64,000 nt of DNA from Haloarcula pelagica (GTDB lineage: Archaea > Halobacteriota > Halobacteria > Halobacteriales > Haloarculaceae), in NCBI RefSeq assembly GCF_030127105.1, contig NZ_CP126161.1, forward strand, positions 2,666,001 to 2,730,000, given 5' to 3'. Under the pieces are notes generated by a model. The model saw nothing but the letters and a program-made list of their open reading frames with translations. It was not told the origin of the DNA and did no database searches. Positions 20,400 through 30,449 of this stretch are shown piece after piece. The position numbers and the translations under genes were made by a program. Position 1 is the first letter of the stretch. Every line of letters begins with the position of its first letter.

Positions 20400-21710
20400 A
20401 TGACAGATCAGTCGCTCGGCGAGGGCGCACCCGGATACGGGGCCCGCGCCGGCTGGAGCCGTGAGCAGGCGGCAGGGATCGAACGAACCCACGACACCGT
20501 CGCACCCATCGTCTACCCCCCCGAGGACGACCAGATCCCGGAGGTCCACATCTGGGACACGTGGTTCCTGCGCAACCGGGACGGCACCCTGGCCGAGGTC
20601 GAGGGCTACCGCGTCTGTTTCTCGCTGACCGCGCCCTCGGAGCTGCTGCCGGGCAAGCGCCACGACGTTGCGACGATCCGGTGTTTCTACTCCGCGGACG
20701 GGAAGCACTGGCACAACGCCGGCCCCGTCTTCGAGGACGCGCTGGGCCAGCGACAGTGGGCCGGTTCGGCGCTGTACGACGACGACGGCTCCGTCTATCT
20801 GTTCTACACCGCGGCCGGCGAGGAGGGCGCCGAGGATCTCACGTACGGCCAGCGCATCGTCGGCGCCGGCGGCGGCAGCATCCACACCGACGACGGGTTC
20901 GAACTCCGTGGCCCCTGGACCCATCACGAACTGCTCCGGCCCGACGGCGAGCGCTACGAGCGCGAGGATCAGTCCCGCGCGATGATCTACACGTTCCGCG
21001 ACCCGTGGTTCTTCGAGGACCCCGAGACGGGCGAGACGTGGCTCCTCTTCGAGGCCAACACGCCGGTCCCGGAGGGCAGCGACGCCTGCGGCGGCGACGC
21101 CGAACTCCAGGGGTTCAACGGCAGCGTCGGCATCGCCCGCTCGCCCACCGGCGACCCCCTGGAGTGGGAACTCGAAGACCCGCTGCTCGACGCCGTCGGG
21201 GTCAACCAGGAACTCGAACGGCCACACATCGTCTACCGTGACGGCCTGTACTACCTGTTTCTCTCCAGCCACCTCCACACGTTCGCGCCCGGACTCGACG
21301 GCTTCGACGCGCTGTATGGCTTCGTCGCCGAGGAACTGCGCGGCGACTACGTCCCGCTGAACGAGTCGGGGCTGGTCGTGACCAACCCCGCGAACGCCCC
21401 CTTCCAGTCGTACTCCTGGATGGCTTTCCCTCACGGCGACGAGGTGCTCGTCCAGAGCTTCTTCAACTACTACGAGTTCGCCGGCGAGACCCTGGACGAG
21501 ATCGCCCACCTCCCCGAATCCGAACAGATGCGCCGCTTCGGGGGGACGCTCGGCCCGACCGTCCGCCTGGATGTCGAGGGCACCAGGACCCGGATTCTCG
21601 GGGCGCTGGGGCACTGGCACGTCCCGATGGCCGGCGACGAACTGCCGCCGACCGACCGGGAACTGATCCGGCGCGGGCGGGCCGGCGAGGGCGGCGGCTA
21701 CGGACAGTAA
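20400..21710 (+). CDS. GH68 levansucrase-type fructosyltransferase
   Basis: 436 residues with the complete GH68 catalytic set. The nucleophile is Asp53 in HIWDTWFL, the transition-state stabiliser is Asp201 in FRDPWFF, and the acid/base is Glu273 in ELERPHIV. QWAGSA near residue 120 matches the family motif around the sucrose pocket. Such enzymes split sucrose and build fructan (levan or inulin) or release fructose. There is no hydrophobic signal peptide or Tat motif at the N-terminus (MTDQSLGEGAPGYGARAGWS), which is odd for an enzyme whose polymer is normally extracellular. A GH32 fructosidase lies 1 kb downstream on the other strand. Confidence 0.9.
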   Translation: MTDQSLGEGAPGYGARAGWSREQAAGIERTHDTVAPIVYPPEDDQIPEVHIWDTWFLRNRDGTLAEVEGYRVCFSLTAPSELLPGKRHDVATIRCFYSADGKHWHNAGPVFEDALGQRQWAGSALYDDDGSVYLFYTAAGEEGAEDLTYGQRIVGAGGGSIHTDDGFELRGPWTHHELLRPDGERYEREDQSRAMIYTFRDPWFFEDPETGETWLLFEANTPVPEGSDACGGDAELQGFNGSVGIARSPTGDPLEWELEDPLLDAVGVNQELERPHIVYRDGLYYLFLSSHLHTFAPGLDGFDALYGFVAEELRGDYVPLNESGLVVTNPANAPFQSYSWMAFPHGDEVLVQSFFNYYEFAGETLDEIAHLPESEQMRRFGGTLGPTVRLDVEGTRTRILGALGHWHVPMAGDELPPTDRELIRRGRAGEGGGYGQ

Positions 21711-21762
21711 CAGCGGCCGCAACGTTTTGTCGGTCCGGCGCCTCTCCCGAGCAGACACCGCT

Positions 21763-22671
21763 ATGCGCGGAGACGACACCACCGTTCCGGACCCCGAGCA
21801 CGCGCTCGCCGTCGTCGGACACGGCGGACTGGCGCGGTTGGGTCGCGGGCTGGGACGGGCCCCAGGTGTCGCATCGCTGTCCGAGCCACCGACCGCAGAC
21901 GGGGAGCGAGCGGCCGTCACGGTTTTGCTGACGGATTTCGCCGACGGAGCCGTGCCACCCGTCGAGTGGTTCGACCGGGTGACCGTCGGCGCGGGGCTCT
22001 ACCTGGCTGTCGTCGCCGCTCCCGCGTCGGCGGACGCGCTGGACCCGACCGTCGCCCGGGCGGTGAGACGGCTGCGTGGGGCGGTCGACGCGACGGTCGT
22101 CCTCCGACCCGGGCACCATCGCCGCGGCGTCCGTGCGACTGTGACGACTCTCGCGGACCTGCTCGCACGTCCGGGCGTCGTCAACCTCGACCCGGCCGAC
22201 GTTCGGACGGTGCTCCGGGCCGGTCCCACGGCGGCCGTCGCGACGGGTACCGGGACCGAGAACGGGGACGCTGCGAGCGACGCGGTGACGGCCGTCCAGA
22301 CGGCGCTGGACGCGCCACACGCCGACGTGGGGCCGCCCGAAGCCGTCCTCGTCAACCTCGTCGGCGGACCCGGACTGTCGCTCGCCGCGGCGGTCGACGC
22401 CGTCGACGGCATCCAGCAGGCGGTGCCCGACGACGCCGTGTTGATCTGGGGGGTCGCCGTCGAGCCCTCGCTGTCGACCGTCCACGCTCAGGTCGTCGCC
22501 AGCAGCGCCAGCGCCCCGCTCTTCGAGGTGGTGCTGTCCGACGCGCGCGAGCCGACACCGGGTGAGGCCTGTCCGCGGTGTGGCGGCCACGTCGCCGCCT
22601 ACACGCTGGGGGACAGCCGGACGGCCGCCTGCGAGGGCTGTGGCTACTCCGGGACGGCCAGGCGGCTCTGA
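21763..22671 (+). CDS. Degenerate FtsZ/tubulin-like protein with C-terminal zinc ribbon
   Basis: 302 residues. Residues 127-246 resemble the FtsZ T7 loop and C-terminal domain: PGVVNLDPADVRTVL matches the FtsZ synergy loop (both aspartates kept), then AVLVNLVGGPGLSLAAAV and DDAVLIWGVAVEPSL. The N-terminus ALAVVGHGGLARLGRGLG looks like a decayed first nucleotide loop. The tubulin signature GGGTGTG is missing: the chain goes straight from about residue 80 into the following strand (LYLAVVAAPASADAL). Residues 270-294 hold CPRCGG and CEGCGY, a zinc ribbon not normal for FtsZ or CetZ. Probably not a self-sufficient GTPase; possibly a regulator or partner of cytoskeletal filaments. The family match is by eye. 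Confidence 0.65.
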   Translation: MRGDDTTVPDPEHALAVVGHGGLARLGRGLGRAPGVASLSEPPTADGERAAVTVLLTDFADGAVPPVEWFDRVTVGAGLYLAVVAAPASADALDPTVARAVRRLRGAVDATVVLRPGHHRRGVRATVTTLADLLARPGVVNLDPADVRTVLRAGPTAAVATGTGTENGDAASDAVTAVQTALDAPHADVGPPEAVLVNLVGGPGLSLAAAVDAVDGIQQAVPDDAVLIWGVAVEPSLSTVHAQVVASSASAPLFEVVLSDAREPTPGEACPRCGGHVAAYTLGDSRTAACEGCGYSGTARRL

Positions 22672-22712: not shown

Positions 22713-24860
22713 CTACTGTGGCGGTACGCGGTCGGCGTCGGCGCGGGGCCAGGCGCCGTCCAGTTCCCACACGTCGAGCGAGGCGACCGTCGCCCGGCCT
22801 CCCTCGGCCCGTAGCGAGATGCCCGTCGCGTCCTCGCGGGTCGGATAGACCCGGCTCGTCAGGCAGTGTCGTTCGTTGGCGAACACCTCGACGACGGAGC
22901 CGTCGACGAACACGCGCAGCGACAGCGGCGAGTCGTAGGGGGTAACCCGCATCCGCTGGGTGGCGCTGGTCGCTCGCTCGTCGAGGCTGGCCGTCGAGCG
23001 GTCGACGGTGATCTCGGAGTTCCGGGCGTAGCGGATCGGCGTGTACTCCTCGCGGTCTGGCGTCTCGAGGACCGACAGCGCCAGCGCGTCGGCGTCGTCG
23101 AGCCGGACCGTCGCACGCAGTTCGAACTGCTGGCTGTCGATGTCGAGCGGCCGGCGTTCGCCGTCCAGGCGGAGCACATCGTGGCCGAGGTTCTCGCCGC
23201 GTAACGCCCGGAGTTCCGGGGCCGGCCGCTGGCAGAGCCCGCCGTCGTCGGCCAGGGTCAGTTCCCGAGGCAGCGACATCGTCCCGGACCAGCCGGCGTC
23301 CCACTGCGCGCTCACGTCTCTGGCCTCCGGGAGCCACCCCCAGGTGAGGATGCGCCCGTCGTCGAGCCACATCGACTGCGGGGCGTAGAAGTCGCCGTGG
23401 TCGAGTTTGTCCCGGCGGTGGGGGTCGAACTGACCGTCCTCGTAGGTGCCGACGAAGTAGACGACATCCTCGTAGTTCGAGATGTGCAACAGCTGCTTCT
23501 CGCCGAAGTCCAGCAGTTCCGGACACTCCCAGACCGTGCCGGCCGTGTCCCGGTCACCGGTCAGGATCGGCCCGCGGTACTCCCAGTCACGCAGGTCGTC
23601 GGACTCGTACAGCAGCGCCGCGCCGCCCCCGTCCTCGATTCCGGCGCCGATGAGCTGGTACCAGGTCCCGTCCTCGCGCCAGACACAGTGGTCCCGGAAC
23701 TCCCCGTCCCAGTCCTCCGTCGAGAGGACCTGTGGCTCACGGGGCACCTCCTGGATGATCGGGTTCTCGGGGTCTTTGTCCCACGCCCGGAGGCTGTCGT
23801 CGGTAGCGGTCGCCATGCAGGGTAACTGGAGCGTCTCCCGGCCGCCCGTGTAGAGGATCGTCGGCGTGCCGTCGTCGTCGACCGCACAGCCCGACCAGCA
23901 GCCGTCCCGGTCCGGGCCGTCCGGAGAGGGCGTGAGCGCGACCGGTTCGTCCTCCCAGTGGACCAGGTCGTCGCTGACCGCGTGGCCCCAGTGGATCGTG
24001 TTGTGGAAGGGACCGGCGGGGTTGTACTGATAGAAGACGTGATACCGGCCGTTCCAGTGGATGAGGCCGTTGGGATCGTTCAGCCAGTTGGCCGGCGGCG
24101 TGAGGTGGTAGCTCGGGCGGTGTCGGTCGTCCGCGAGCCGCTCTCTGGCCAGGGTCAACGTCTCGGCGTCTTTCGGCCGGCCCAGCAGCGGCGACCGCTC
24201 ACCCTCTGCCAGATGCCGGAGGGCGTTGCCGACCAGCGTCTGTCTGTTCCGCCGGCAGATGTCGTGGGTCGGATGCAGGAAGGAGACGGCCGAGCCGATG
24301 CCGATGACCTGTCCGTCGCCCGGGTGCCAGGCGATCGTCGACAGTTCCGAGACGGCGTTCGTCTCGGCCCGCGCGGTGCTCGCGAGCACGTCGCCCTGGG
24401 CCGGAACCATCCCCTCGTATCGGGTGTACGGAACCGTCACGCCCGGGCCGCGGGTGTGAACGGTCAGCGTGTCGAACTCGTCGTGGACCGGGTGGTCCTC
24501 GTAGAGGGCCTTCCACAGCGGGCCGGTCGGCTCTGAGATCTCCTCCCAGCCGCTCTCGTCCGGTCGCACGTCTTCGAAGCCGAGCGGGACGACCGCGCCC
24601 ATCGCGCCCAGCGTGAGCAACAGACCGCCGCCCGATCTGACGAACGACCGCAGTGTCTCGACCGCGTCGGCCGGAAGCTCGTCGGGATCGAACTCGTCGT
24701 CGCGGTGCCACCAGAGGACATCGAACGCGTCGGGTTCGACAGTCGTGAGCGAACATCGCTTGGCCGTCCCGGCTGCCTCCGCACACCAGTCGTAGGCGGC
24801 GTCCTGCTCGCTGGAACAGGAACCGGCGTAGAGACAGCCGATCCGCAGCGATTCGACCAT
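22713..24860 (-). CDS. GH32 fructosidase fused to an amidotransferase-like N-terminal domain
   Basis: 715 residues. Residues 1-215 resemble a glutamine-amidotransferase/ThuA-like flavodoxin fold ([40 protein letters not shown]) without an obvious catalytic triad. Residues 250-560 form the GH32 five-bladed propeller: WLNDPNG with nucleophile Asp262, FRD at 388-390, and WECPEL with acid/base Glu445. The third motif reads FRDH rather than the usual FRDP. A C-terminal beta-sandwich follows ([13 protein letters not shown]). It should hydrolyse sucrose or beta-fructans. No signal peptide is visible, so it seems cytoplasmic. Confidence 0.88.
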
Positions 24861-24938: not shown

Positions 24939-26378
24939 CTACTTCTCGACGGCGGACTGGGAACTCTCGCCGGCCGTGTGGGCCGTCGTCCCGTCGGTGG
25001 TGCCCTGGTCGGGACGGGGCTCGTCGGACGGACGCCGCTCCTCGCGGTCGTCCGCAGTCAGTTCCGTGCGTGCCCGCTTGATCCGGTCCTCGACGGCGTC
25101 CAGTTCCGTCTGGAGGTGCTCGACAGCGTCGGGGTAACAGTCGCGAGCGGTCGCCAGCGCGGCCTCGAACGCCTCGCGGGCCTCGTCGAACTCGTCGAGG
25201 GCCGCGTCGTACTGGCCGGCGGCGGCGTACCAGTCCCCGGCTTCGGTCGCGTCGCTGGCGATGGTCCGTCGGGTCGCAGTGAGGTTCCGGGCGACCTCTC
25301 CGAGTCGCTCGCGGATGGCCTCGTGATCGCCGGCGAACCGTCGCTCGTCGGCTCCCCAGTCGAGTCGCATGGCGGTCCGGTACCGTTCGAGGGCGGCCTC
25401 CCAGTGGGTCGCCGCCCGAGTCGGGTCGTCCGCTGCCGCCGCGTCTTCGGCGGCCCGGTCCGCGCTCTCGATCGGTGCGGCCGAGAGCCCTTCGATGACC
25501 GTCCGCAGTCGCTCACGCTCGGACTGGACGGCCGATACGTCCGGGACGCGTTCGTGTCGCCGGGAGAGGATCGTCTCGTACTCGTCGCGAGCCTTCTCGA
25601 ACGTATCGTAGGCGGCCTCGTACTCCTGAGTGCGCCACTGGTGTTCCCCCCGGTCGAGGAGTCGATGCGCGTGGCTGCGGCGGACTCGTGAATCGACCGC
25701 GACCGCCCGCTCGGACACCGTCTCGACGCGCTGGCTCATCGCCTCGGCGGCCCGCGCCGACGGGACGCCCGAAACCGTCGCCGCCGCGTCGTCGAGGCGG
25801 TCGAGCGCGGTCTGTGACGCGGCCCGTGCAGCGTCGAGGTCGCCGTCTTCCCTGTGAGAACTGGCTTCCACGAGCGCCTCTCGGACGGCCTCCAGAACCG
25901 TCTCGGCGTGGACCCAGGCCTGCGAGACAGCCTCCAGAAACGTCGTGACGGCTTCGAGTCCGTCTGTCCCGCAGTGCAGCGTCAGCGTCGCACCGCCGGT
26001 CCGCGTGATCGTCAACTGTCCGTGTCGGAACCGCGTCGTGGCGTCGACCTGCTCGATCTCTGCGTGTGGGACGGCGAACTCGTGGTCGCCCGTCCCGTCG
26101 ACGCCGCCGACGAGGACCAGCAGTCGGCGGTCGGTGACGATACCGATCGTCCGGTACCCCGTCCCCGGACGTATCTCGTCGAGTTGGGTCCCCGATTCGA
26201 AACTGACCCCGTACTTCCCGTTCGTGAGGACGAACTGCGGGTTCTCACCGTCGTCCAGCGCCGCGACCGCCGGCGCGTCCTGAAGCGTGCCCGGTGACAG
26301 GAACCCACCCTGTCCCGTGCTGGTGAGGACTGCCGGAAGCTCGTCCTCAGAATTATCTAAAATGATAATCTGACCCAT
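24939..26378 (-). CDS. PH-like domain plus helical-repeat protein
   Basis: 479 residues, cytoplasmic and acidic. Residues 30-150 look like a bacterial/archaeal PH-like domain: GIVTDRRLLVLVGG followed by EFAVPHAEIEQVDATTRFRH and GQLTITRTGGATLTLHCG, the pattern of bPH proteins. Residues 155-460 are all-helical with TPR-like or coiled-coil texture (EYEAAYDTFEKARDEYETIL, YDAALDEFDEAREAFEAALA). Such architecture suggests a scaffold. A CATATAC box 25 bases upstream of the ATG (around 26399-26405, minus strand) suggests a leaderless transcript. Its gene is 0.4 kb from the actin-like gene, on the same strand. Confidence 0.7.
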   Translation of the reverse strand: MGQIIILDNSEDELPAVLTSTGQGGFLSPGTLQDAPAVAALDDGENPQFVLTNGKYGVSFESGTQLDEIRPGTGYRTIGIVTDRRLLVLVGGVDGTGDHEFAVPHAEIEQVDATTRFRHGQLTITRTGGATLTLHCGTDGLEAVTTFLEAVSQAWVHAETVLEAVREALVEASSHREDGDLDAARAASQTALDRLDDAAATVSGVPSARAAEAMSQRVETVSERAVAVDSRVRRSHAHRLLDRGEHQWRTQEYEAAYDTFEKARDEYETILSRRHERVPDVSAVQSERERLRTVIEGLSAAPIESADRAAEDAAAADDPTRAATHWEAALERYRTAMRLDWGADERRFAGDHEAIRERLGEVARNLTATRRTIASDATEAGDWYAAAGQYDAALDEFDEAREAFEAALATARDCYPDAVEHLQTELDAVEDRIKRARTELTADDREERRPSDEPRPDQGTTDGTTAHTAGESSQSAVEK

Positions 26379-26754: not shown

Positions 26755-27837
26755 TCAGCTGTTCTCGACTAACCGCTCCGCGATCCGCTGGGCGCCGACC
26801 GTCGCCGCGTCTGCCGGCTGCTCGGCCGCCGTCGCCTCGATCTCGCGGTCGAGTTCCTCGCTGAGCCGCGCCTCGAACTCGTCGACGATCCCGGGGATGC
26901 AGGCCATCCCGCCGGTGAGGACGACGGGCTGGTCGAGGGCGAGCTTGTACACCTTCATGTAGTCGTTCGCCAGTTCGGGGAGGAAGGTGTTCGCGAGTTC
27001 GTCGACGGCCTCGTCTAAGTACTCGTTGACGGCGTCCATCACCGACCGCTCGATCGTGAACTCGTGTGAGCCGCCGCCGGGCTGTTGGATGATGTCGGTA
27101 AAGGGCTCGAAGTCGACGAAGTCGGCGTGCTCTTCCTTGTACTCACGGGCGGTCTGTGTGTCGATGTTGACCCGGCCCTGAGTCTCCTCCTCGACGTAGT
27201 TGGCGATCATCCGGTCGACCTCGTTGCCGGTGACCGCGCCGGTCGTGAAGGGGGCGAGCTGTTCGCCCCGCCGGTAGGCGGAGGCTTCGAGGTTCGTCGA
27301 CCCCATGTTGACCGCGACGAAGATCTCGTCGATCGCTTCCAGCGCCTCGCCGAACGCGGGGATCGACCCACACAGCGACTCGGGATAGCTCTCGACCAGT
27401 TCCGTCCCGATCGAGGAGTCCTCGATGACCGATCGGAGGTTGTCCAGCCCCGCCGGGTTGTCGATCGTCGGGATCGCGTAGACGACGCCGCTGTCCTCGG
27501 GGATGTCGTTCTCCTCGATGACTGCCTCGAAGAACGTCTTGGTCATCTCGGCACGGTCGGCGTCTTCCGGGAGCCCCGACCGGAGCATGTACTGGACGCG
27601 ATCGGGGTACTCGCGGGCGGCCTCCTCGCCGTAGAGGATCTTCTCCTCGCCGGTGAGCGCGTCCTCGTAGGTCGCCATGCAGGTCAGCGTCTTGACGATC
27701 CGGTTCCCGCCGTCCCCGTCGGGGAGCGCGATGACCGTCCGCGTACTGCCGAGTTTGACCCCGACTGGCACCGTTCCGCCGTCCGCCAGGCTCTCGAACT
27801 CCGCGTCGTCCCCCGCTTCTGCGTCGTCCTCACTCAT
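26755..27837 (-). CDS. Actin/MreB-family ATPase, salactin-like
   Basis: 360 residues with the actin/Hsp70 nucleotide-binding loops: phosphate 1 GVKLGSTRTVIALP near residue 25, phosphate 2 VAVNMGSTNLEASAYRRG near residue 180, and adenosine motif VVLTGGMACIPGI near residue 310. The size fits a filament-forming actin rather than Hsp70, because no peptide-binding domain follows. It resembles the haloarchaeal actin homologue described as salactin, which forms polar filaments in Halobacterium; that assignment is from memory. A GGTTATATACC box (27864-27874, minus strand) lies about 32 bases upstream. The acidic N-terminal 20 residues are probably disordered. Confidence 0.78.
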   Translation of the reverse strand: MSEDDAEAGDDAEFESLADGGTVPVGVKLGSTRTVIALPDGDGGNRIVKTLTCMATYEDALTGEEKILYGEEAAREYPDRVQYMLRSGLPEDADRAEMTKTFFEAVIEENDIPEDSGVVYAIPTIDNPAGLDNLRSVIEDSSIGTELVESYPESLCGSIPAFGEALEAIDEIFVAVNMGSTNLEASAYRRGEQLAPFTTGAVTGNEVDRMIANYVEEETQGRVNIDTQTAREYKEEHADFVDFEPFTDIIQQPGGGSHEFTIERSVMDAVNEYLDEAVDELANTFLPELANDYMKVYKLALDQPVVLTGGMACIPGIVDEFEARLSEELDREIEATAAEQPADAATVGAQRIAERLVENS

Positions 27838-27903: not shown

Positions 27904-28401
27904 TCAGGTCATCGCGGTCAGCTTCGCGATGTACACCAGACTCAGCATGTGGTCGTCGACATCCAGGTCGCCGTCCTCGGTGGCCGCCGACTCCTCGATC
28001 CCCAGCAGGTAATCCGAGAGGTCACTCGCCACGTCGTCGGTGATCCAGTCGACCGACTCGTAGTACGACAGCGCGCTGTCCGTGCCCTGATAGCCGGCGT
28101 GCAGCAACAGGAACTCCAGCCACTCGAACACGACGAACTCCGCCGCGTACGTCTCCGGGAGCGATTCGAGATACGGCTTCTCCAGCTCGTCGCCACCGAG
28201 AAACGGGAGTAGCTCCCGGTAGAGGCCCGACCGGAACGAGTCGCCGGTGACACTCTCGCCGTCGCCCTCGTCGAGGCCGATGTCGGCCAGCGTCGACGGG
28301 TCCGGAACCTCCTCGTCACCGATCCCGCCGTCCTGATCGCCGCGCTTGCGGGCCAACTCCCGCAGTTCGTCCAGATCGTAGTCGCGCGGATTGATGGTCA
28401 T
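27904..28401 (-). CDS. FlaD/FlaE-like archaellum accessory protein
   Basis: 165 residues. The C-terminal 100 match the FlaD/E-type domain: YLESLPETYAAEFVVFEWLE, then FLLLHAGYQGTDSALSYYES, VDWITDDVASDLSDYLLGI. In known archaella this domain belongs to a cytoplasmic accessory that links the motor to chemotaxis. The N-terminal 55 residues are short and acidic (NPRDYDLDELRELARKRG). It is divergent from parA with a 171-bp intergenic region. A CTTTTATGT box 29 bases before the ATG indicates a leaderless message. No archaellin genes are present in this window, so this is an orphan paralogue here. Confidence 0.72.
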   Translation of the reverse strand: MTINPRDYDLDELRELARKRGDQDGGIGDEEVPDPSTLADIGLDEGDGESVTGDSFRSGLYRELLPFLGGDELEKPYLESLPETYAAEFVVFEWLEFLLLHAGYQGTDSALSYYESVDWITDDVASDLSDYLLGIEESAATEDGDLDVDDHMLSLVYIAKLTAMT

Positions 28402-28443
28402 TGGACACACGTTTCAGCTACTGAGACATAAAAGTTCCACCCT

Positions 28444-28572: not shown

Positions 28573-29466
28573 ATGACGAGAGCAGCAGCGGACGGCCCGG
28601 CGCGTGTCTGCGTGACCAACGCCAAAGGCGGGACCGGCAAGACGACCATCGCGATCAACGTCGCCGGAGCCCTGAACGACAGGGGTCGGGATGTCCTGTT
28701 CGTGGACCTCGATCCACAGGGCAACGCCACGGAGGGGCTCGGCCTGGTCGACGAGTACGACGCCGAGCCGCCCACACTGTTCGACGCGCTCACCGACGAC
28801 CCGTCGCTGCTGTCGGACCTGATCGTCGAACACGAGGAGATGGACGTGGTGCCGTCGAGTATCGACATGCTCCAGGCCGAGCACGAACTCACCATCGCCG
28901 ACCTGATCGCGCGGGTCCGGACGCAGGGCCGGAGCGTCGACCCGGAGACGCTGGCCTCCTTCGCGATCAACGTCTCGCCGTCGATGGTCACGGGGAGTCA
29001 CGCCCTGGACACGCTCGATCGTGCGCTGGCGACGGTCTCCGACTACGACTACGTCGTCATCGACTCCCCGCCCTTCTACGGGAAACTGACAGACACCGGG
29101 GTCTTCGCCGCACAGCACATCCTCGTTCCGGCGCTGACCGAGGCCACTTCCGAGCGCGCCATCGAACTGCTGATGGACCAGATGGCGGCGATGGAACGCC
29201 AGACCGGCATCGCCGTCGAGATGCTCGGCGTCGTCGCCAACCGGGTCGAGACGACCGCCGAGGACGAGACGATGCTGGAGTGGTTCAACATGGCCTTCCC
29301 GGACAGCCCCGTCTGGGAGGTCCGGAAACGGGTGGCGCTCCAGCGGGCGTTCAGCGCCGGCCGATCGGTGTTCACGGCCGAGGAGAGCTGTGACATGGCG
29401 GCGGTGTTCGAGGAGGTCGCCGCCGAACTCGACAGGACGTTCGGATACACAGAGGTGACAGCATGA
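28573..29466 (+). CDS. parA: ParA/MinD-family ATPase
   Basis: 297 residues with the deviant Walker A KGGTGKTT near residue 17, the Walker A' stretch VLFVDLDPQGNATEGLG, and Walker B-like VVIDSPP near residue 160. These ATPases position DNA, chemoreceptor arrays or motors. The two downstream bases of its stop codon overlap the cheW start (ATGA), so a partner role in placing chemotaxis or motility proteins is more likely than chromosome or plasmid segregation; no parB or parS is visible next to it. The TATA box at 28533-28541 gives a leader of about 10 bases. Confidence 0.85.
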   Translation: MTRAAADGPARVCVTNAKGGTGKTTIAINVAGALNDRGRDVLFVDLDPQGNATEGLGLVDEYDAEPPTLFDALTDDPSLLSDLIVEHEEMDVVPSSIDMLQAEHELTIADLIARVRTQGRSVDPETLASFAINVSPSMVTGSHALDTLDRALATVSDYDYVVIDSPPFYGKLTDTGVFAAQHILVPALTEATSERAIELLMDQMAAMERQTGIAVEMLGVVANRVETTAEDETMLEWFNMAFPDSPVWEVRKRVALQRAFSAGRSVFTAEESCDMAAVFEEVAAELDRTFGYTEVTA

Positions 29467-30449
29467 GTGACGACGACCGCATGGACCGCGCCGAACGCAT
29501 CCGGAAGATGCGCGAAGGGGACCGGGAGACAGACACCGACGACGGGACCGAGTCGAAGACGACCACCGAGTCGACGACGGACACCTCGTCGGAGGGCGAC
29601 ACGGCGGAGCCGACAGACGAAGCCGACGTGACAATGCCGGACGAACCGGCGTCGACGGGTGCCGAGCCGACGACCGACTCCGAGGCGTGGTTCGACGAGG
29701 AGTCGGGGACCGGCGACGACGGGGAGACAGCGGACACTGATACCGACGGCTCTCAGTCCGCCGAGGACGCGCTCTCGGCCGCCGAACGGGCCGCACAGTC
29801 GGCGGCACAGCTCTCGGGCGGGGACGCGGCCACGCCTGGGGGCGACCAGCCCGGCGATATCTCCGCGACGGCGACGGCGATGCAGGGGCCGACCGGCGTC
29901 GAACTGCCCGACCAGCAACTGCTGGAGGAGGCCATGACCGGCACCGGCACGTCCAGGGCCGAGGGCGGCGCGCGGGCCGCCGCCGTCGGTGAGGAGACGA
30001 GCCAGAGCGAAGAACTGGTCCGGGTGCTGGAGTTCGCCCTCTCGGGGGAACACTACTGCCTGGACATCGAGTACGTCGAGGAGATCGTCAAGCGGGACAC
30101 GATCACCCGGGTCCCGAACACGCCCGACTACGTCGAGGGCGTGGTCGACCTCCGCGGGCAGATCACGACGATCCTCGACCCGACGGCGATGATGGATGTC
30201 GACGACGCGGGGTCACAGGACCTCATCGTCGTCTTCGACCCCGACATGTCCGAGGATCAGGGCGCGATCGGCTGGGTCGTCGACGAGGTCCGCCAGGTCG
30301 CGCCGATCACCGAGGACCAGATCAACGACCCACCGGTCGACGCCGAGTACATCAACGGCGTCGTCGACCGTGAGGATCAGGACCAGTTCGTCATCTGGAT
30401 CGAACCCGACGACGCGCTCGAACAGGCCACCCTCGACGACGGGGACTGA
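29463..30449 (+). CDS. cheW: CheW-domain protein with long acidic N-terminus
   Basis: 328 residues. The C-terminal 145 form a CheW domain (LEFALSGEHYCLDIEYVEEI, RVPNTPDYVEGVVDLRGQIT, AEYINGVVDREDQDQFVIWI), the adaptor between receptors and the CheA kinase. The first 180 residues are low-complexity and strongly acidic, about twice the length of an ordinary CheW in total, and are probably disordered. It is translationally coupled to parA. No cheA, cheY or receptor gene lies nearby, so this adaptor works with proteins encoded elsewhere. Confidence 0.85.
   Translation: MSDDDRMDRAERIRKMREGDRETDTDDGTESKTTTESTTDTSSEGDTAEPTDEADVTMPDEPASTGAEPTTDSEAWFDEESGTGDDGETADTDTDGSQSAEDALSAAERAAQSAAQLSGGDAATPGGDQPGDISATATAMQGPTGVELPDQQLLEEAMTGTGTSRAEGGARAAAVGEETSQSEELVRVLEFALSGEHYCLDIEYVEEIVKRDTITRVPNTPDYVEGVVDLRGQITTILDPTAMMDVDDAGSQDLIVVFDPDMSEDQGAIGWVVDEVRQVAPITEDQINDPPVDAEYINGVVDREDQDQFVIWIEPDDALEQATLDDGD

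Follow-up and report, generated by a model that had tools for sequence, protein, structure and literature searches.

ARC3 of plants is an FtsZ-derived protein that keeps the N-terminal FtsZ-like part and carries MORN repeats. In chloroplast division it binds FtsZ and inhibits its assembly (PMC5471200). SulA and MciZ, which are not FtsZ homologues, attach to FtsZ at its bottom, the T7 side. Divergent members of the FtsZ superfamily also occur in archaea or bacteria. FtsZl1, FtsZl2 and Tubulin_2 keep T1 and T4, are either much longer or extended in other ways, and lack the FtsZ_C domain; FtsZl1 has no confident T6-H7 (Makarova and Koonin 2010). The haloarchaeal tubulin-superfamily paralogues CetZ and Halo.Tub have a full Tubulin (PF00091) domain without FtsZ_C (PMC9871819). 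In S. aureus FtsZ, N208, D210 and D213 of the upper subunit contact D46, Q48, T3 and the gamma-phosphate region of the lower neighbour, N208L, D210N and D213N each abolish assembly, and an exposed T7 is thought to receive the GTP-bound top surface of incoming monomers (PMC8936486).

The gene analysed here lies in a window of 64,000 nucleotides from Haloarcula pelagica (contig NZ_CP126161.1). An earlier note described its 302-aa product as an FtsZ-type protein that lacks a nucleotide pocket, retains T7 and has acquired a zinc ribbon. HMMs, structure prediction and 35 homologues back this description, and the motifs quoted for it (PGVVNLDPADVRTVL, LVNLVGGPGLSLAAAV, VLIWGVAVEPSL, CPRCGG and CEGCGY) were all found in the ORF. 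The ATG at 21763 agrees with the starts of homologues, TTG at 21727 being a possible alternative start. The gene is organized as follows:

21763..22671, plus strand: ORF of 302 aa (P0001) with ATG start, putative FtsZ1-derived pseudo-GTPase with C-terminal zinc ribbon
21763..22017, plus strand: shortened N-terminal GTPase-like domain, residues 1-85, with S1/T1 remnant VVGHGG (residues 17-22), without T3 and T4 (GGGTGTG); PF00091 is blind to this domain
22018..22167, plus strand: S5-H5-S6 remnant and helix H7, residues 86-135; T6 Asn lost
22174..22212, plus strand: T7 loop and start of H8, GVVNLDPADVRTV, residues 138-150, with family-invariant Asn141, Asp143, Asp146 and Thr149
22228..22506, plus strand: FtsZ C-terminal domain, about residues 156-248, with LVNLVGGPG and VLIWG (PF12327 162-246, TIGR00065 124-250)
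22570..22644, plus strand: predicted zinc ribbon CPRC-x16-CEGCG, residues 270-294; ribbon cysteines invariant across the family

Similarity to FtsZ is detected by profile, sequence and fold. HMM search with TIGR00065 (ftsZ) matches residues 124-250 (E-value 4.6e-14); FtsZ_C (PF12327) matches the window protein with 35.2 bits (cut-off 27, E-value 1.5e-8) and was found in all 14 family members checked. Since the TIGR00065 score of 52.5 bits is below the 295-bit equivalog cut-off, the protein does not rank as an FtsZ equivalog. FtsZ chains in the PDB were matched by phmmer down to 1e-14. These alignments begin already at residue ~91, so the resemblance to FtsZ stands as noted earlier, but not its supposed start at the T7 loop. 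PF00091 (Tubulin) gave no match to the protein in Pfam search, and PF13809 (Tubulin_2) gave none at E-values up to 10 for the window protein or up to 1 for 14 members. Beyond FtsZ, HMM and PDB sequence searches returned weak matches of the protein tail to zinc ribbons. The AlphaFold2 model of the window protein (pLDDT 84.9, pTM 0.81) predicts an FtsZ-like fold, and its top Foldseek matches in the PDB are all FtsZ (E-value 8e-16, TM 0.62). For a divergent Natronomonas member (pTM 0.70), the Foldseek PDB matches listed are likewise FtsZ (4e-13). TM-scores of about 0.5-0.6 are consistent with a shortened N-domain. The earlier note had left room for a fold unlike tubulin or a closer resemblance to some other family; an FtsZ-like fold was predicted and FtsZ is the best match. 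Lacking PF00091 and possessing FtsZ_C, the protein does not class as CetZ, and the family differs from FtsZl1, FtsZl2 and Tubulin_2 by having FtsZ_C and lacking T4. As judged from FtsZ_C, predicted fold and the T7 NxDxxD motif, the 302-aa protein and its relatives are members of the FtsZ/tubulin superfamily by descent. We regard its identity as an FtsZ relative with a decayed GTPase domain as virtually certain.

Alignment of the family with FtsZ1 and FtsZ2 reveals the extent of this decay. T1 persists as a remnant (VVGHGG in the window protein, VVGCGALG in some relatives), T2-T6 are erased, with T3 and T4 either deleted or substituted by other sequence. The glycine-rich nucleotide loop was rightly noted as absent, T4 being gone in 35/35 members; as the tubulin signature GGGTGTG (T4) and the T1 glycines are missing or decayed throughout, none has the hallmarks of an FtsZ GTPase. 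T6 Asn is lost in 34/35 members, the exception being L059 with VRNE. Because phmmer alignments start at ~91 and an S1/T1 remnant (V17, G19) is left, the domain is to be seen as decayed and shortened, not wholly absent. Compared with haloarchaeal and euryarchaeal FtsZ1, the C-terminal domain, T7 loop and IWG strand are homologous, whereas the N-domain is short, T2-T6 are missing, T1 is only a remnant and the tail is replaced by the ribbon. The family also differs from FtsZ1 in being accessory and not universal.

Conservation was gauged by the 121 columns at which 36 FtsZ1 sequences show no variation, and a column was counted as retained if preserved in 95% or more of the family. Ten of the 121 are retained: 4/9 in T7/H8, 2/81 in the rest of the N-domain and 4/31 elsewhere in the C-domain. 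T7/H8 retains a larger share of its columns than the N-domain outside it (Fisher p 0.0007); its excess over the remaining C-domain is marginal (p 0.06). The four retained T7/H8 columns are Asn, Asp, Asp and a nearby Thr. Both T7 aspartates are thus kept, as proposed, N-x-D-x-x-D occurring in 35/35 members; the Asn/Asp/Asp residues correspond to N208/D210/D213 of SaFtsZ (numbering from PMC8936486). The Phe/Tyr of the FtsZ T7 is replaced by Pro or Leu.

The appended ribbon, too, is a family trait: CxxC-x16-CxxC is found at the C-terminal end of 35/35 members. Two CxxC knuckles at fixed spacing identify it as a predicted zinc ribbon. All 35 members share C-P-R-C...C-x-x-C-G within it, and the invariance of these Cys, Pro, Arg and Gly residues equals that of T7. 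Pfam recognizes the ribbon of the window protein weakly (PF12760, 0.0023, under the cut-off), and HMM searches reveal resemblance to TFIIB, IS1595 and FPG/IleRS ribbons. The same genome also encodes a 126-aa protein (L004, G000:C1 about 3073300-3073660, minus strand) whose ribbon (CPRCG...CGSC) is nearly identical and which has a long acidic tail. The two ribbons share 51% identity over 35 aa. Since this second small ribbon protein exists in the same genome, the ribbon is a shared module, of which L004 is a possible source.

Relatives were searched for at two levels, with 392 genomes sampled from the order and 391 from the class. Full-length relatives occur in about 30/391 haloarchaeal genomes sampled, and after duplicate removal at least 35 distinct members were obtained, all haloarchaeal and of the same layout. 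Carriers span Haloarcula s.l., Natronomonas, Halorubrum, Halobellus and others, including Haloarcula rara, Halomicroarcula sp. SYNS111, several Halorubrum, Halobellus captivus and Natronomonas MAGs; Haloferax volcanii does not figure among the named carriers. In a 393-genome phylum sample no relative was found outside class Halobacteria, viral contigs yielded none, and plasmid records only an ordinary FtsZ. The plasmid NZ_CP031306.1 of Natronorubrum bangense, an 828-kb replicon, bears an annotated ftsZ gene at 161789-162118. In a tree of the family, FtsZ1 and FtsZ2, the family forms a single clade (support 100/99) that falls with FtsZ1, apart from FtsZ2 (split supported at 100/100); no CetZ affinity was found, the tree comprising only these three groups. 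Since the family stem is long (1.7-1.9 changes per site), the tree gives the FtsZ1 side and not the branching point within FtsZ1. Close family pairs display dN/dS of 0.12-0.49, that is, purifying selection. Core division genes are expected to evolve more slowly than these values suggest; the gene is maintained by selection and evolves faster than expected of such a gene. Open papers were searched for this layout and none was found, in keeping with the earlier remark that no protein of this kind was known to have been described. The proteins constitute a previously undescribed family, restricted to haloarchaea, of FtsZ paralogues that group with FtsZ1.

The Haloarcula locus places the gene between GH68 levansucrase and GH32 genes, some 4 kb from a salactin/ParA/CheW block:

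20400-21707, plus strand: GH68 levansucrase
22716-24860, minus strand: GH32 with N-terminal DUF4960 match
24942-26378, minus strand: 479-aa helical, TPR-like protein adjoining salactin
26758-27837, minus strand: salactin (PF25229, 1.2e-186)
27907-28410 (minus), 28573-29463 (plus) and 29463-30446 (plus): block members beside salactin; the block includes an Arch_fla_DE-domain protein, ParA and CheW

The two glycosidase genes face each other and are likely a fructan pair. Many Haloarcula are cleanly devoid of the gene, and its distribution is patchy. In these non-carriers the flanks are the same, with both glycosidase genes 2-43 bases apart, which indicates a cleanly gained or lost accessory gene. 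It is independent of fructan use, since one carrier (G363) keeps it without the glycosidase genes. Neighbourhoods were compared using ORFs that passed a coding-score filter. In Halorubrum and Natronomonas the gene is located elsewhere and neighbours differ between genera, so context names no function for it. Across the genera compared, the gene is not consistently linked to ftsZ1, ftsZ2 or sepF. One Natronomonas-like genome (L068, G289:C1 2341000-2360500) has it about 5 kb from ftsZ1, an arrangement not seen in the others. A functional link to the salactin/ParA/CheW or fructan genes was considered and rejected, because these blocks are intact in Haloarcula without the gene and other neighbours are found in Halorubrum and Natronomonas.

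The actin gene nearby is salactin by Pfam and not volactin, as was also considered. Salactin is reported to show poor synteny within Halobacterium (PMC10746226). The block of salactin, Arch_fla_DE-domain protein, ParA and CheW is, in contrast, conserved across the Haloarcula genomes examined, and this pairing may hint at a role. The adjoining TPR-like protein evolves fast within the genus (about 50% identity versus 75-90% for neighbours).

Since the conserved T7 residues act across the subunit interface, the earlier suggestion that T7 might cap or activate a true FtsZ is sound. Candidate partners are encoded in the same genome, namely ordinary FtsZ1, FtsZ2 and two CetZ-type proteins; the Pfam Tubulin model detects these four and not the 302-aa protein. 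We give about even chances to a pseudo-GTPase that descends from FtsZ1 and uses T7 in trans to contact the GTP face of real FtsZ. Such a protein would be unable to bind GTP or to receive a subunit on its own top face, and so would presumably form no filament by itself. With its T7 (bottom) face it would dock onto a real FtsZ, FtsZ1 being the most likely, at the top face that carries GTP. The simplest picture would be a one-sided subunit, which sits on the GTP face of FtsZ and has nothing sitting on top. Docking could block the top face, so that GTP-FtsZ monomers would be sequestered or the nucleotide-exposing filament end capped. Alternatively, it could complete a composite active site and trigger hydrolysis in the manner of a GAP, an activation conceivable because both catalytic Asp are retained. 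The ribbon may recruit a second partner, be it protein or nucleic acid, or be the point of regulation. Overall, the protein would modulate Z-ring dynamics as an accessory factor, probably in a negative sense. The narrower version, in which a T7-only pseudo-subunit donates two catalytic aspartates in trans to FtsZ1 as a ribbon-gated, GTPase-activating cap, is possible though doubtful. If true, an activating cap would derive from the filament protein itself, a mirror image of plant ARC3.

FtsZ-derived control (ARC3) and interface blockers (SulA, MciZ) are precedents, but for the opposite part or face. Like ARC3, which is an FtsZ regulator, the family is FtsZ-derived, fused to another domain and a proposed regulator; it keeps the T7/C-domain half and adds a ribbon, and common origin is not implied. 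Like SulA and MciZ, it would act at the longitudinal interface as cap or sequestering factor, but would bind the opposite, nucleotide face with its own T7.

Other readings have to be weighed against this one-sided subunit. The Pro or Leu in place of the T7 Phe/Tyr, the long family stem and neighbourhoods without a stable tie to ftsZ1, ftsZ2 or sepF also count against it. The C-domain and T7 might merely dock on FtsZ while the ribbon does the work by binding DNA or another protein, thereby coupling the site of the Z-ring to either the nucleoid or a regulator, as a nucleoid-occlusion factor would. Ribbon residues that equal T7 in invariance, and a module shared with L004 and akin to TFIIB, IS1595 and FPG/IleRS ribbons, speak for such an adaptor. 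Ribbons of this kind bind proteins as often as nucleic acid, and no basic patch is prominent beyond the invariant Arg. Docking alone, moreover, would not need both catalytic Asp conserved, and we hold the adaptor somewhat unlikely.

T7 conservation could also be partly structural, because its Asn/Asp residues shape the loop itself (K+ site, start of H8): N208 of SaFtsZ additionally coordinates K+ inside the T7 loop (PMC8936486). The merely marginal excess of T7 over the remaining C-domain likewise weakens the in-trans reading. Taken to its end, this means that the K+ site and H7-H8 link account for T7 and that the fold is reused for something unrelated to FtsZ filaments. W229, G230 and V197, in core strands, are equally invariant, and neighbourhoods lack any pointer to division. 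In FtsZ, however, D210 and D213 keep the catalytic water in place at the GTP of the neighbouring subunit, and both are conserved where 79/81 N-domain invariants have decayed; such reuse is unlikely. Long branches and clean absence from many Haloarcula would fit a decaying pseudogene or remnant of ftsZ duplication, but an open reading frame in 35 divergent members, the purifying selection, the invariant T7 and ribbon residues and a GC3 of 0.86, normal among genes of the same genome, make this extremely improbable.

The one-sided subunit reading makes this degenerate FtsZ paralogue a likely regulator, with a layout not described in the open papers searched. A broad superfamily survey used the N-terminal Tubulin model as search profile (PMC9871819), and it has a blind spot here, since that model misses this family of FtsZ relatives. 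Few archaeal FtsZ regulators are known (SepF and some others), and control of the two haloarchaeal FtsZs is an open question. With only one of the two filament faces left, the family would represent a natural separation-of-function mutant, and would make it directly testable in vivo which FtsZ face sets filament turnover.
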